Positions 13,401 to 58,280 of a stretch of 64,000 nucleotides of DNA are shown piece after piece. This stretch comes from Thysanoteuthis rhombus (lineage: Eukaryota > Mollusca > Cephalopoda > Oegopsida > Thysanoteuthidae): assembly GCA_963457665.1 (NCBI GenBank), contig OY735201.1, forward strand, positions 33,924,918 to 33,988,917. The letters run 5' to 3'. How positions within the stretch are numbered: the stretch's first letter is position 1; the number at the start of each line of letters is the position of its first letter. The notes beneath the pieces were generated by a model, which was not told the DNA's origin, made no database searches, and was given only the letters and a program-made list of their open reading frames with translations. Both the position numbers and the translations under genes were made by a program.

Positions 13401-15102
13401 AAATCAGTCACAACATTTTTTCGGAATTGAATACAAGCATGTTTTTTATTCTTTATAACTTGTCCGATCGAAAGTTGTATTATATATATGGTATGTATGT
13501 AATTTGATTCGTATTATTTACTGGAAGCACATTTTATGTATATTTCTTTCCTATTGTACAATATGAAAGCTTAATCCAGTGCTTCTAGCAAGATCACTTT
13601 GTGCATCCTTCCAGTGCTGCTATATATTTAATTTTTTGTCTTCTTTGAATTCATTGTAAACTCAATGTGAATTGGTATTTTTATCTAATTCAAGAGTCAT
13701 ATTTTTTTCTTTTATTCAATAGTGAGTTGTTTTCTAACTTACTCTTCCTTTTTCAACTTTTTTGCCTTTATTCAGAATTACTAAACTATATTTGTTCTGT
13801 TGGTTTTTCATTCATTTCTTGTTGCTCACAGCTAGAGGGTTTGCATTACTGTGCTTAGTGTAGACATCAGCCTTCTCCTTAAAAGGAATAATGTGATCGT
13901 CACTGAAGGCTCTGTATATAATCCCTAGCTGCTGACAGTACCTGGTATTCTCAGATGGTGATCTATTCGGGAACTGTCCAGGCTCAATGTTGCTTAACCA
14001 CCAATTGTACAAGAACTGGTGTGTCCATCACAATTTGGCCATAACATTTTGTTTGCCAGATTATATCCACTTCAAGTTCTGTGTATCTATTTATCCTCAT
14101 TTGAAAATTTTTCTCCCTTTTAATTTTTGTTGGTCAAGTGGCAACAAACCTCAGAACCCTAATATTTTTATAAGTATACTTTAATGAGTAATAAGATGTT
14201 TTCAATCATAAGATATTTTTATAGTTGTCAGTTCCTTCTATTTGAATTTTGAAATATATGGTGCTATGTCTGATTTGTGAATGAAATTCATTCTTTAACA
14301 TACACATCTAACAGTTGTAAATGTTACTTTTTAGATTATGTATTAATGTGAGGATCATATGACACCAACTCAAATTATTTATAAAACAAGATGGAATTGT
14401 TTGCAGTTTAATGTTGAAATATTAATAGAATGAGAAAGGTTTTATTGCATTCCATTTACGATCATTCAAATTTGATTTCCAAATGTTTGAGGCGTTTTGT
14501 ATCTTGAACTGACACTTCTCTTACTGTCTATTTGATTATATTTGTCATTGAACTTTCACGTCAGTGGTTTTGTTATTCACATATAAAACTCACATTAAGC
14601 TGGACTCATCTCAGTTTTATTGTCACATATTTTTTCGTTGATCATTTCATCAATAATAGGAAAGGACTTCACAATCTCTTTGCCTTTCCATCTCCATTCC
14701 ATACTTTTTACTGTCTACTTTAGAATCAAAAGGTATTTTGACTGTATTGATTTTCAAAGTCAGACCACATGGGAATGTAAAGATTTAAAGTTTTTTGTCT
14801 TGGTAAGATTTTCTTAGTATGGATCACATACTATTTAAAAGTAAGCAAGGAAAAAAGAAAAAATCTGGATATTTGTGCAAATTTTAGTTCTATGTAAAGT
14901 TCGTAAATGGAACACCCTTGAAATATAATTGGATTTTTAGGTTAGTGAAATTATTCACTTAATTTTCCTTGCTTGCAGATAGTTTTTTCTTCTTTTTTTT
15001 TTTTCTTCTTTTTATCTTTCTCTCGTGAATTTCACTCCTCAAATATTGAATTCTTACACTATCCTCGTTGGTGTTCATTAGGTAGTTTGCCTTATATTTC
15101 AG

Positions 15103-46500: not shown

Positions 46501-47677
46501 TAGTACTCTATACACACAAACTCCTTATGTAGATCAAAGAATTGAATAAAATAATATACTTGGCTTTTGCAGGAAGAAATAGTAAATAAATTGAGTTCTG
46601 GTATAAAACAAAAAAAGGCAAGACTTTGTGGGCTGTACCCTTAAGGCAATAGTTAGTCATCTTATTAGGGAATGTTAAATGTTTAAAATAGGTAAAATAT
46701 TTCCTTAGATCATAGGAGTCCCTATGGAAATCGATCCTGTGCTTTACTGGACAAATTTGTATTTACATTGGCATGAATACATATATTCATATTGTTTTTA
46801 ATCAGAACTGCTATGAAGTTAGCATGTTTATTTTCTAGGTTGTACCTGTGTTATTAATGACTCATGTACTCTTAATGATGGAAGAAAATTTGGAAAATCA
46901 TATAGTTATATGTACGCGAAGGACCTTGAACTAAAGTGTAAACATAACCCAAATGCAAGGTACATTACTAGATTTAAATATTAGAATCAAGATGGAATGT
47001 AGGTCTATAAATTGTTTGATGAACGGGACTCATTTCCATCCCATATCATATGTATACCATTTAGAACAATTAGTATTCCATCTTATATGTTTTATATAAC
47101 TATACTATCATGACATTTGAGAATAGCTAGAGCTACTCCTGGAGAATTGTTTCATTACTTGAAAGAATGGTCGATCAAGACAGTGAAATTAGTAAGACTT
47201 ATAGATAATTCAATAAGGCCACGACCAGACATCCTGATACCTTTAAAACTTATTAACTTGACCAAAATGAAATAATAGCAAAAATTCAAGAATATGATCA
47301 CAAGAGTATAAACAGAAAATAGATGAATAATGTATATTAAATGAATCAATTCAGGAAAATTAACTTGAAGGTGAGTGCAAGAAAATAATGAAATTCCTCA
47401 ATTAAATATGTTGGTAGAAAATTAATTCGGAGTTTTTCTGTGTAACCAGTTTTCTTGAAGATGATATCATAAGCTGGTTTGCATGCAGTCTCAGATTTAA
47501 CCCAACATAATGGATTGAATATTCACATAGGTGAACACTCAATAGAATTGACACAAACAGTGAGTCATATCTGTTGTTATATTACTAATCCCTCCTCACT
47601 GAATAAATATCAAATGAAATGATGTGTAGTATAGAATAACATCCATACACAATACATTTTGATAATATCCTAAACTG
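43586..47677. other. AT-rich stretch without recognised genes
   Basis: Contains homopolymer runs (T-run near 45000, C-run near 45467) and a purine-rich GGA patch near 44880. No coding or splice-bounded segment was recognised. Confidence 0.45.
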
Positions 47678-47901
47678 CTTCCCCGAGACTGGGCTAGGTA
47701 GATTTTGTGAGGGCCCAGACGAATCCTAGGCCCTATATGCTTAGCAATGCCTCAGTGACCCTTCATCGACAACAACATTGTACCAGCACCTAGGCTGATT
47801 GTTTTCTTAGCCTAAAGGCCGACAAAGCACAGATCAACTTCACAGCCCAAGGGAGTCAAAAAAAGATGCAACACTTCGATCTTGGCCAAAAGGCTGATCT
47901 T
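47678..47901 (-). mobile_element. U2 snRNA-headed repeat, unit B
   Basis: Read on the minus strand, the unit opens with GATCAGCCTTTTGGCCAAGATC and GAAGTGTTGCATCT, a mutated U2 5' end (CGGCCUUUUGGCUAAGAUCAAGUGUAGUAUCU). A non-U2 body follows with TCACTGAGGCATTGCTAAGC, CCTAGGATTCGTCTGGGCCC and ACAAAATCTACC. The body is shared with unit A, so this is an interspersed repeat rather than a functional U2 gene. Confidence 0.65.
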
Positions 47902-47917
47902 TTTATTTGTAATAGGA

Positions 47918-48137
47918 TGGTGCTGCACTGGGGTGGACAGCTTCCCCCAGACTGGCCAGGTAATTTTGTGAGGCCCAGGACGAATCCCAGGCTCCTGATG
48001 CTTAGCAATGCCTCAGTGACCCTTCATCAGCATTGCACCAGCACTTGGGCTGATCGAGTTCTCAGCCTAAAGGCTGACAAAGAGCATCAAAGAGTAGATA
48101 CTACACTTTGATCTTAGCCAAGAAAGGCTGAGGAGCT
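47918..48137 (-). mobile_element. U2 snRNA-headed repeat, unit A
   Basis: On the minus strand it starts CTCAGCCTTTCTTGGCTAAG and continues ATCAAAGTGTAGTATCT. This keeps the U2 stem-loop I region and the GTAGTA branch-site recognition sequence. Next come CAGCCTTTAGGCTGAGAA, GTGCTGGTGCAATGCTGATG, TCACTGAGGCATTGCTAAGC and GGGATTCGTCCTGGGC. It lies head-to-tail with unit B, separated by a few bases. The Sm-site and 3' half of U2 are absent. Confidence 0.7.
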
Positions 48138-48780
48138 CACAGTAGATTTTATTCATCTAAATAATACAAACTCACAAATATACAAATTATTTTTTACAGT
48201 GAAATTGAAAAAAGAATACATCGATTCAAAGAATATACGCAAGATGCAAGAGAAATGCACAATCTGGATGTGACATGAAGTCGCACAGTAGATGACTCTT
48301 TTCCCATCCCACCATATACACATCACTTTCTTCGGATCAAGACCAGCCTTTGGTATGATTAGTAGTAATTTATTTTACTTAACCTTTGATCTCTTTCATT
48401 CAACAATGTTTTAAAGTATACAATTTTCATCTCTCATCACAATTTAAGAATTGGAACATTTTTGTTATGTTCATGTCATACATAGAAATTTAGTATTGGG
48501 CATCGAAAACAAAGGGACAGATTTTGAATATTGAAAAAAATTTATGTCTTAAAAGTCAAAACAGAAGGGGGGAATCATAAAATAATATGAGGAGAAAATT
48601 AGGTCACCTTCCAAAAATCTCTGAGAATAATTGGGCATCTCACTTGATGCCTGGTGATATCACAGAGTAATAGTTCATTTCCTTTGTCTCAAATCTCAAT
48701 ATAAGCTGTCATTATTCGCTGGTCAGAGGAATTCATATCAGTTGTAAGTCATTGCTGCTGCTGCATTTAGAGAACGATCT
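48138..48780. other. stretch without recognised genes
   Basis: No exon or repeat was recognised. It lies just beyond the 3' side of the minus-strand gene's last exon seen here. Confidence 0.35.
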
Positions 48781-54842: not shown

Positions 54843-55110
54843 TCTGGCCTGTTCTTCAGGATCAAAGTGTAGTATCTGTTTCACGGCATAGACCAAGGAG
54901 TTGATACTGACACTTGCCTGTCGAATGGGCTGGAGAGGGAGTGTGTGTCAAAGACCGAATGTGCCGGTGCAAGTGTTAGCCAATGAGGTTTAACTGAGGC
55001 TGCGTTTGCTAAGCGCATTGGGGAGCCTTTAGACTCGTCCTTAGGCTCTCCTGCGGGGTCTCTGTTTCCCTGGAGCAGCACTGCTCCATTGCAGCTAAAG
55101 GAGCAGGTCC
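54843..55110 (+). mobile_element. U2 snRNA-headed repeat, diverged copy
   Basis: TTCTGGCCTGTTCTTCAGGA is followed by TCAAAGTGTAGTATCTGTTTC, matching the U2 5' region including GTAGTATCTGTT. The body has GTGCCGGTGCAAGTG, AACTGAGGCTGCGTTTGCTA, AGCGCATTGGGGAGCC and GACTCGTCCTTAGGC, which parallel GTGCTGGTGCAATG, CACTGAGGCATTGCTA, AGCATCAGGAGCC and GATTCGTCCTGGGC of unit A. It belongs to the same family but is older or another subfamily, and is GC-rich compared with its surroundings. Confidence 0.6.
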
Positions 55111-55295
55111 CCTGGTGGACGCTTTCGTGGCGGACGTTGTCTAGCCATTACGATGCGCTTTTCAACGGTAGCCGCGTCGGCTGGAGCCAATTTTGGAAGG
55201 GTTGTTCCTATTTCTTCCCATGTTAAGCCCGACCTTGTGTCAAATATTGCTGTGGTGGAACAGTGTTTGAATAGCACACACACACACTTGTACAA
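55095..55295 (-). other. GC-rich minus-strand ORF of unknown nature
   Basis: The frame reads FDTRSGLTWEEIGTTLPKLA, then PADAATVEKRIVMARQRPP. Base composition is well above background and continuous with the U2-headed repeat to its left, so it may be part of an element rather than a host exon. No family was recognised. The plus strand also has an open frame (55153-55344) in the same DNA. Confidence 0.25.
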
Positions 55296-57711: not shown

Positions 57712-58007
57712 ATGTGCTCTCTGAAGGCTTTCTAATTTTATATGGGGGTAGGTTTTATACGGAGTGATTACTATCATTAAGCTACAAGAAAGACAGATCT
57801 ATGATACCAAAATATAAACCAGAGACATGTAGGTAGACAAAAATACAAAAATTGTTTGGCCACCTTGGATGGTACAAAATCAAATCTGGTACCTGGATTA
57901 ATGTGAATATACTTAGATAGGAAATTTATAGCAAGGATACCATAGGGAAAAATTAAGTGCCAATATATACAAAAAAGTTTGTTGGTAAGTAAAATAAAAG
58001 TTTGTTC

Positions 58008-58280
58008 AGATAGTATAATGATTAGCATGTCTATCTCGCATACAGAAGGTCTAGGGTTCAATTCCCAGTATGAATGAAGAATGTGGAAAACTCTTTTTTA
58101 GGACAAATTTCCCCTGTGCAATCAGCAACTAATAGAGTACATTTTAAGCTATGTGATTTGGGTGGAAATATCTCTTCAGTGGACTTGCATCCTGCCAAGG
58201 GGGTGGTCATGAAAAATTGTAGGTATAAAGTCCTGGTCTCAACCAGACTTGAAACTTGCAAAGATCACTAAGCTGATGTA
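58008..58280 (+). mobile_element. tRNA-headed SINE-like element
   Basis: A tRNA-like head has box A TATAATGATTAGCATG, an anticodon-arm-like TCTATCTCGCATACAGA (CGC, alanine-like) and box B GGGTTCAATTCCCAG. A body of about 200 bp follows. It is too diverged in the acceptor stem and 3' side for a tRNA gene. Confidence 0.55.

Follow-up and report, generated by a model that had tools for sequence, protein, structure and literature searches.

A SINEU-like system of U2-headed SINEs in a mollusc genome, tied to the start of the U2 gene

The mollusc genome examined here contains a SINEU-like system of snRNA-headed SINEs that is tied to the start of the U2 gene. The units of these SINEs carry the 5' end of U2 snRNA in front of non-U2 bodies, and pairs of occupied and empty genes show that both SINEs and a LINE have inserted between the U2 promoter region and complete U2. 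The window, by which we mean the whole stretch of 64,000 nt of DNA that was analysed, holds an old, damaged two-unit copy of this SINE group.

The repeat in the window

Two head-to-tail units lie on the minus strand at window positions 47674-48147, and each has the U2 snRNA 5' end followed by a common non-U2 body. The original prediction had placed the repeat at 47678..48137; it is present there, with real ends that are slightly wider. The following features were delineated, in window coordinates:

48148..48283, minus strand: 3' UTR end (..GATGAATAAA) of a 5'-truncated APE-type LINE, immediately 5' of the unit 1 head
48147 to ~47898, minus strand: unit 1, type A, 83% against the A consensus over 254 columns
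48090..48147, minus strand: U2 head of unit 1, made up of ATC (48147-48145), an 8-nt insertion (48144-48137) and U2 nt 4-48 (48136-48090)
47908..48089, minus strand: body of unit 1, type A, consensus positions ~49-255
47898..47907, minus strand: tail remnant of unit 1 (AATAAAAAGA), left after an internal deletion of ~130 nt and abutting unit 2
47897 to 47674, minus strand: unit 2, type A, 84% against the A consensus over 225 columns
47858..47897, minus strand: U2 head of unit 2, U2 nt 9-48
47674..47857, minus strand: body of unit 2, type A, ending at consensus position 226, with the 3' part absent
54846..55270, plus strand: near full-length U2-headed SINE of an older type, W, a relative of A that lies outside the repeat reported before

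Both heads were compared with the genome's own U2 gene and are indeed U2 5' regions, that of unit 1 matching over nt 4-48 (87%, 47 columns, E 2e-10) and that of unit 2 over nt 9-48 (82%, 40 columns, E 5e-6). The GTAGTA branch-site recognition sequence that had been read in unit 1 is intact there (GTGTAGTATCT) and has decayed in unit 2 (GTGTTGCATCT). At the gathering level the Rfam scan found no U2 in the window; a permissive scan gave 29.8 bits (E 5e-4) for unit 1, against a gathering score of 46. The units share one non-U2 body; CACTGAGGCATTGCTAAGC is common to the two, and GATTCGTCCTGGGC is exact in unit 1 and one base short in unit 2. Both lack most of the 3' part. The sequence at their junction, AAATAAAAAGA, is also the joint between A units and following X units elsewhere, for example at loci L045, L054 and L087. 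The LINE fragment at 48283-48148 matches the 3' end of the LINE at L016 (75% over 143 nt, E 4e-21), and its position at the head of unit 1 is what is expected if the LINE inserted there.

Elsewhere in the window, a diverged 5S rRNA-like sequence occupies 13930-14046 on the minus strand (39.4 bits; gathering 38) and is either a pseudogene or the head of a 5S-derived SINE. A tRNA-like sequence with a good B box (9/10) at 58004-58076 on the plus strand (33 bits) is perhaps a tRNA-derived SINE or a pseudogene.

Unit types and their spread in the genome

The genome searched comprises 2.73 Gb in 514 contigs. Twenty loci found with the window copy as query, the window itself and 30 loci found with a headless A-type 3' probe gave 51 distinct loci, of which 41 were left after removal of duplicates. 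Consensus units of type A (397 nt) and type X (390 nt) were written by eye; a variant of 405-408 nt, X', is found beside U2 genes and also in some arrays. Intact units of ~390-408 nt consist of U2 nt 1-48, an A, X or X' body and a tail that ends near ..GGGGATGCAAATAAATA. Over U2 nt 1-48 the identity is 46/48 for A, 47/48 for X and 47/48 for X' (as taken from L017), and past nt 48 it falls to 11-14/48. Rfam scored U2 above the gathering score at the X' heads of L016 and L017 and at the X head of L054.

The tails of A and X are related (score 82, shuffle maximum 27), and a relation between the A and X bodies is unsupported, with 33 of 200 shuffles as good. A relation of the A, X and W bodies to U2 nt 49-194 found no support either, with 20, 46 and 196 of 200 shuffles, respectively, as good. 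Folding of the consensus units is much better than that of shuffled sequences (z -4.96 for X and -4.95 for A) and consists largely of chains of small hairpins.

The reading of the repeat as a dispersed SINE-like family with an snRNA head is borne out by the genome-wide occurrence of its body: the first look returned 576 candidates with the window copy as query, 1264 with the X unit and 399 with the A 3' part, 40 being scored for each. The units are short, non-coding and spread over many contigs, as judged for the X unit from the 40 scored of its 1264 candidates. With the X query, head included, the main matches at these 40 places all start within U2 nt 1-28, and at least 31 of them reach consensus position 387 or beyond.

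Copies with heads are also the rule where the probe had none. The A copies recovered with the tail-only probe, which have a median identity of 90% to the consensus, start at or before U2 nt 12 in 20 of 30 cases and at or before nt 30 in 25; one starts at nt 39 and four beyond nt 48, and among these four L073 retains a separate head piece. Of the 41 loci, 20 have a first array unit that starts within consensus positions 1-9 and 34 have one that starts within 1-30; in six the start lies past position 48. Since most tail-probe A copies and most first array units thus begin within U2 nt 30, the head is not a chance neighbour of the body. Neither result that had been named beforehand as refuting the SINE reading, a body confined to this locus or a majority of headless copies, was obtained. 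The expectation that full-length copies start at U2 +1 holds for a part of them, five first units beginning exactly there (L046, L054, L055, L069 and L087), and the start is not always exact.

The W copy in the window is identical to U2 nt 25-45 at 21/21 nt, in a head that is more diverged, and its body is related to that of A (score 107, shuffle maximum 41, 0/200), as is its tail. By first-look candidates, of which there were 5635, W is more abundant than the reported A, X and X' types. Besides the window copy, the other 39 of the 40 places scored match at 82-87% and are mostly full length; five short stretches confirm the W head in other copies, and W has tandem neighbours at several places.

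The host is an invertebrate, as had been supposed: the molluscan haemocyanin domain PF14830 has 52 matches in the genome, clustered on contigs C32 and C25, and the assignment to molluscs rests on these. The arthropod cuticle domain PF00379 had no match, a result on which the assignment does not draw. At C25:56607734-56625492, nine of these domains with identical profile scores follow one another ~2.18 kb apart, an expanded array of functional units.

U2 genes, the LINE and their junctions

Among the matches listed, at least 46 are Rfam U2 matches, all above the gathering score, with 37 on C36 and nine on C42, C35 and C44. In three of these nine, elements sit directly at U2 +1:

L017: U2 promoter region, ATCGC, 5'-truncated X' unit, full X' unit, complete U2
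L009: U2 promoter region, ATCGC(TT), 61-nt LINE 3' end, complete U2
L016: LINE, X' unit, complete U2

The upstream flank of the SINE-bearing gene L017 matches that of the empty gene L015 (96%, 390 nt) and that of L014 (96%, 388 nt), and the flank of the LINE-bearing gene L009 matches that of the empty gene L010 (93%, ~1.2 kb). A SINE tail runs straight into U2 sequence that extends beyond nt 48 at five of 40 scored places (C44, two on C35, C40 and C31), of which two were read as sequence and one, on C35, has a match that extends only to nt 63. At three of the 41 dispersed loci (L049, L075 and L080) the U2 sequence behind the tail begins at nt 7-9 and extends to nt 71-111. Diverged U2 copies stand beside the U2 genes at L017:158-339 (85 bits) and at L009:439-620 (95 bits), the latter behind a LINE-like tail. 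The U2 genes at C36:371045-601796 form an array in which many neighbours are ~2 kb apart and U2 is a slightly different variant; an insert at +1 was absent in the four copies inspected.

The LINE beside L016 encodes a reverse transcriptase (RVT_1, E 3e-29) with a weak zf-RVT match. Upstream of the reverse transcriptase is an APE-like domain, with the match to Exo_endo_phos in a 132-aa fragment (E 8e-5) at 22.9 bits, against a Pfam cut-off of 24.5. No restriction-like endonuclease was found in the 674 aa to the stop, for which Pfam gave RVT_1 and zf-RVT only. Its 3' UTR ends GGATAAATAAA. At 11 of 40 scored places the LINE 3' end is continuous with U2 sequence of 46 nt or more, and six of these 11 stop at U2 nt 46-49, so that they are more likely to be U2 heads than genes. 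The remaining 29 matches stop at or just past the LINE, with no U2 beyond ~10 nt; in four short stretches behind such ends we found ATC followed by sequence other than U2, which in one case is a piece of a W-like SINE.

LINE ends are joined to SINE heads in the window and at L040, L058, L079 and L016. The U2 sequence in the 3' flank begins at nt 1 at L009, L012 and L016 and at nt 8 at L040, L058 and L079. The joints in the window and at L040, L058 and L079 fit a LINE that lands on heads.

Some copies of the LINE carry the head themselves. At L012, the sequence behind a LINE tail is U2 nt 1-48 (48/48 identical). A 5' UTR comes next, and after it a reading frame, MAAKYNSYFKGNEILL.., which resembles the ORF1 of another copy of the LINE. 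With this head and 5' UTR as query, a U2 head was matched at 19 of 40 scored LINE 5'-end places, of which a single array on C46 accounts for ten, and was absent at the other 21. A part of the LINE copies thus share the SINE head together with its breakpoint at nt 48. No full-length LINE was seen in a U2 gene directly behind the promoter and U2 nt 1-48; L012 and L017 approach the arrangement of a full element in this position without showing it.

The array just mentioned, C46:36740846-36843891, has eleven LINE 5' UTR copies, mostly ~9.4 kb apart, ten with a U2 head just upstream, and is a tandem array of U2-headed, LINE-bearing units. Monomers of ~107 nt make up the 5' UTR at several LINE places, for instance behind a U2 head at C27:11133171-11133657; a monomeric 5' UTR is also the layout of mouse L1. 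Further LINE clusters lie at C43:17.40-17.78 Mb, C12:2.2-4.0 Mb and C47:22.4-23.8 Mb, many members having no detected U2 head or U2 3' flank, and in these clusters neighbouring 3'- and 5'-end matches are ~4.3-6.2 kb apart.

The 3' ends of LINE and SINEs have in common only a short stretch, GACYTCGTGTCA..AT, and AAATAAA. Against the X tail, the LINE ends of L016, L012, L079 and L040 were equalled by 0-1 of 300 shuffles, those of L058, the window and L009b by 16, 56 and 180; none of the seven was significant against the A tail. This weak match suggests that a different LINE may serve the SINEs, and the LINE described here is a candidate partner. A role as snRNA promoter motif was weighed for the tail octamer ATGCAAAT and discarded; the octamer looks like CpG decay, since the gene-resident X' tails read GATACGAAT or GATGCGAAT.

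Origin of the heads and arrays

The reading that we favour, and hold to be probable, is that the LINE and the SINEs reside at the U2 start and have a U2 head because they probably use the U2 promoter, and that the heads act as landing sites on which units stack. The APE-type LINE and the SINEs (X' and relatives) insert at the start of U2 sequence. Elements between the U2 promoter and U2 would be transcribed from U2 +1, giving an RNA that carries the U2 5' end, and the LINE machinery could copy this headed RNA by target-primed reverse transcription, thereby creating U2-headed elements elsewhere. Each new head would offer a U2-like landing site, upstream of older units, to further LINEs and SINEs, and some stacks, A-X above all, may afterwards have spread as ready-made dimers. 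Both the partnership of LINE and SINEs and transcription from the U2 promoter are our interpretation of how the elements are arranged.

The arrays bear on the last steps. Forty-seven unit-to-unit junctions were found in 29 of the 41 loci, 23 of them A-X, 14 X-A, six A-A and four X-X (X including X'). In 35 of the 47 the downstream head starts at U2 nt 8 or 9, single junction positions being uncertain by 1-2 bases from BLAST end trimming. Behind 18 terminal X tails, the next bases are ACTC in ten, and CTC occurs within four bases in 12, which recalls the U2 sequence CTT/CTCGG at nt 7/8.

Target site duplications (TSDs), which had been named as a feature to look for, were sought in the flanks. 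Both flanks were available for 40 loci and a complete 3' tail for 25, so that 25 of the 41 loci could be tested. A flank similarity score of at least 8 was reached by four of the 25 true pairs and by 2.3% of 600 mismatched pairs, and the true pairs score higher overall (Mann-Whitney p = 2e-4). The expected duplications are therefore supported as a signal in the set and are clear in a minority only, namely L078, L064, L047 and L087, three of which start with CTC. That most loci have no clear TSD is unsurprising given the median identity of 90% between A copies and their consensus, yet it remains a weak point.

At all four of these loci the duplications surround whole A-X or X-A arrays. This would also be seen if the arrays came from a few multimeric source copies, mainly A-X and also X'-A-X, that were transcribed whole and retroposed as dimers or trimers with no stepwise insertion, and the prevalence of A-X junctions with their near-constant joint speaks for such sources as well. 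The occurrence of all four orders argues against them, however, as do the LINE ends joined to the same heads and the separate insertions in U2 genes; moreover, they would account for the spread of dimers and not for their origin. We consider this explanation possible, though rather less probable than not.

Alternatively, the head could have been gained by template switching or RNA ligation from the element RNA to U2 snRNA, without targeting of U2 genes, a route that has been suggested for chimeras of LINE-1 and U6. Crocodilian SINEU are said to have acquired heads repeatedly, which would suit such a process. Such LINE-1/U6 chimeras are described in the accessible part of PMC13174262. A breakpoint at nt 48 that is identical across several bodies and the LINE speaks against template switching, as do insertions at the start of U2 genes, and we regard it as unlikely to explain the system, although it could still account for the first acquisition of a head.

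It had also been proposed that the head is a promoter. In none of the four unit types (A, X, X' and W) did a Pol III A box or B box exceed the shuffled controls. A TTTTT run within the A unit should stop Pol III, and U2 promoters are located outside the gene, so that the proposal of an internal promoter is not supported. SINE heads serve primarily as internal promoters, according to the part of PMC7245038 at hand; in the present case, given these box and terminator results, it is very improbable that the U2 head is the SINE's own promoter. The lack of a Pol III box above shuffles fits borrowed Pol II transcription. Finally, a satellite that derives from U2, or a tandem duplication of DNA, comparable to U2_sat in sea squirts, would agree with the head-to-tail units, with a local array of ~405-bp spacing (C35:48182547-48183481) and with the tandem W copies, and is hardly credible because of the dispersal over many contigs and the mixed unit order, besides the TSDs and the single units.

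Residence at the U2 start with stacking on dispersed heads is thus the reading retained. Counting against it are the two slightly different sites, gene insertions joining at U2 +1 and array junctions mostly at nt 8-9, and the proportions of convincing TSDs (4/25), headless LINE 5' ends (21/40) and LINE 3' ends with no U2 (29/40). We give about even weight to the more comprehensive statement that one LINE and at least two SINE lineages share the 48-nt U2 head through life at the U2 gene start and use of the U2 promoter, and that the dispersed heads act as mobile U2 targets.

SINEU, reportedly described by Kojima in 2015, are said to be crocodilian SINEs with U1 or U2 snRNA heads, and to our knowledge snRNA-headed SINEs are otherwise known from crocodilians only. 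The mollusc elements resemble SINEU, which are known here by description, in being dispersed short retroposons with a U2-derived 5' head and with repeated or stacked heads. They differ in their host, in a head of U2 nt 1-48 that is common to three unit types, in their mixed head-to-tail arrays and in having relatives inside U2 genes, whereas SINEU reportedly prefer a Mariner element and the Tx1-Mar LINE. An origin separate from that of crocodilian SINEU is likely, as far as SINEU can be set apart by description. Avian genomes are also named for snRNA-headed SINEs in the available portion of PMC8010984, and the titles and opening lines of abstracts in the open literature gave no other invertebrate snRNA-headed SINE, which is no proof of absence.

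According to the excerpted text of PMC4640811, no U2-targeting elements other than Keno and Utopia had been reported at the time; these two have common 3' flanks, and U2 behind Utopia begins at nt 39. In the terms of that text, the mollusc LINE is like Keno in being an APE-type LINE that adjoins U2 sequence, and like Utopia in targeting U2, in being tandem at times and in the looser specificity that Utopia has in some hosts. It differs from both in a 3' flank that starts from U2 nt 1 or 8 and not nt 39, from Keno in that some of its 5' ends bear a U2 head, and from Utopia, an RLE-type element, in its APE-like endonuclease as well as in the position of the junction (PMC4640811, in part). The same excerpts describe U2_sat and YURE of Ciona, where U2-derived repeats likewise serve as LINE landing sites; in the mollusc, by contrast, the U2 repeats are the heads of dispersed SINEs.

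The insertions at the U2 gene start thus mark a site unlike that reported for Keno and Utopia. If the proposed mechanism is true, snRNA heads would be a by-product of residence at a target site, and the U2 start would represent a third way, beside Keno and Utopia, of exploiting U2 genes. The mollusc case also illustrates a way in which target specificity could give rise to tandem arrays away from the original gene. The pertinent question is whether a SINE can acquire its head through residence in a gene and use of that gene's promoter. A single mollusc genome that has the head, occupied U2 genes and a candidate LINE partner makes this origin of SINE heads testable.
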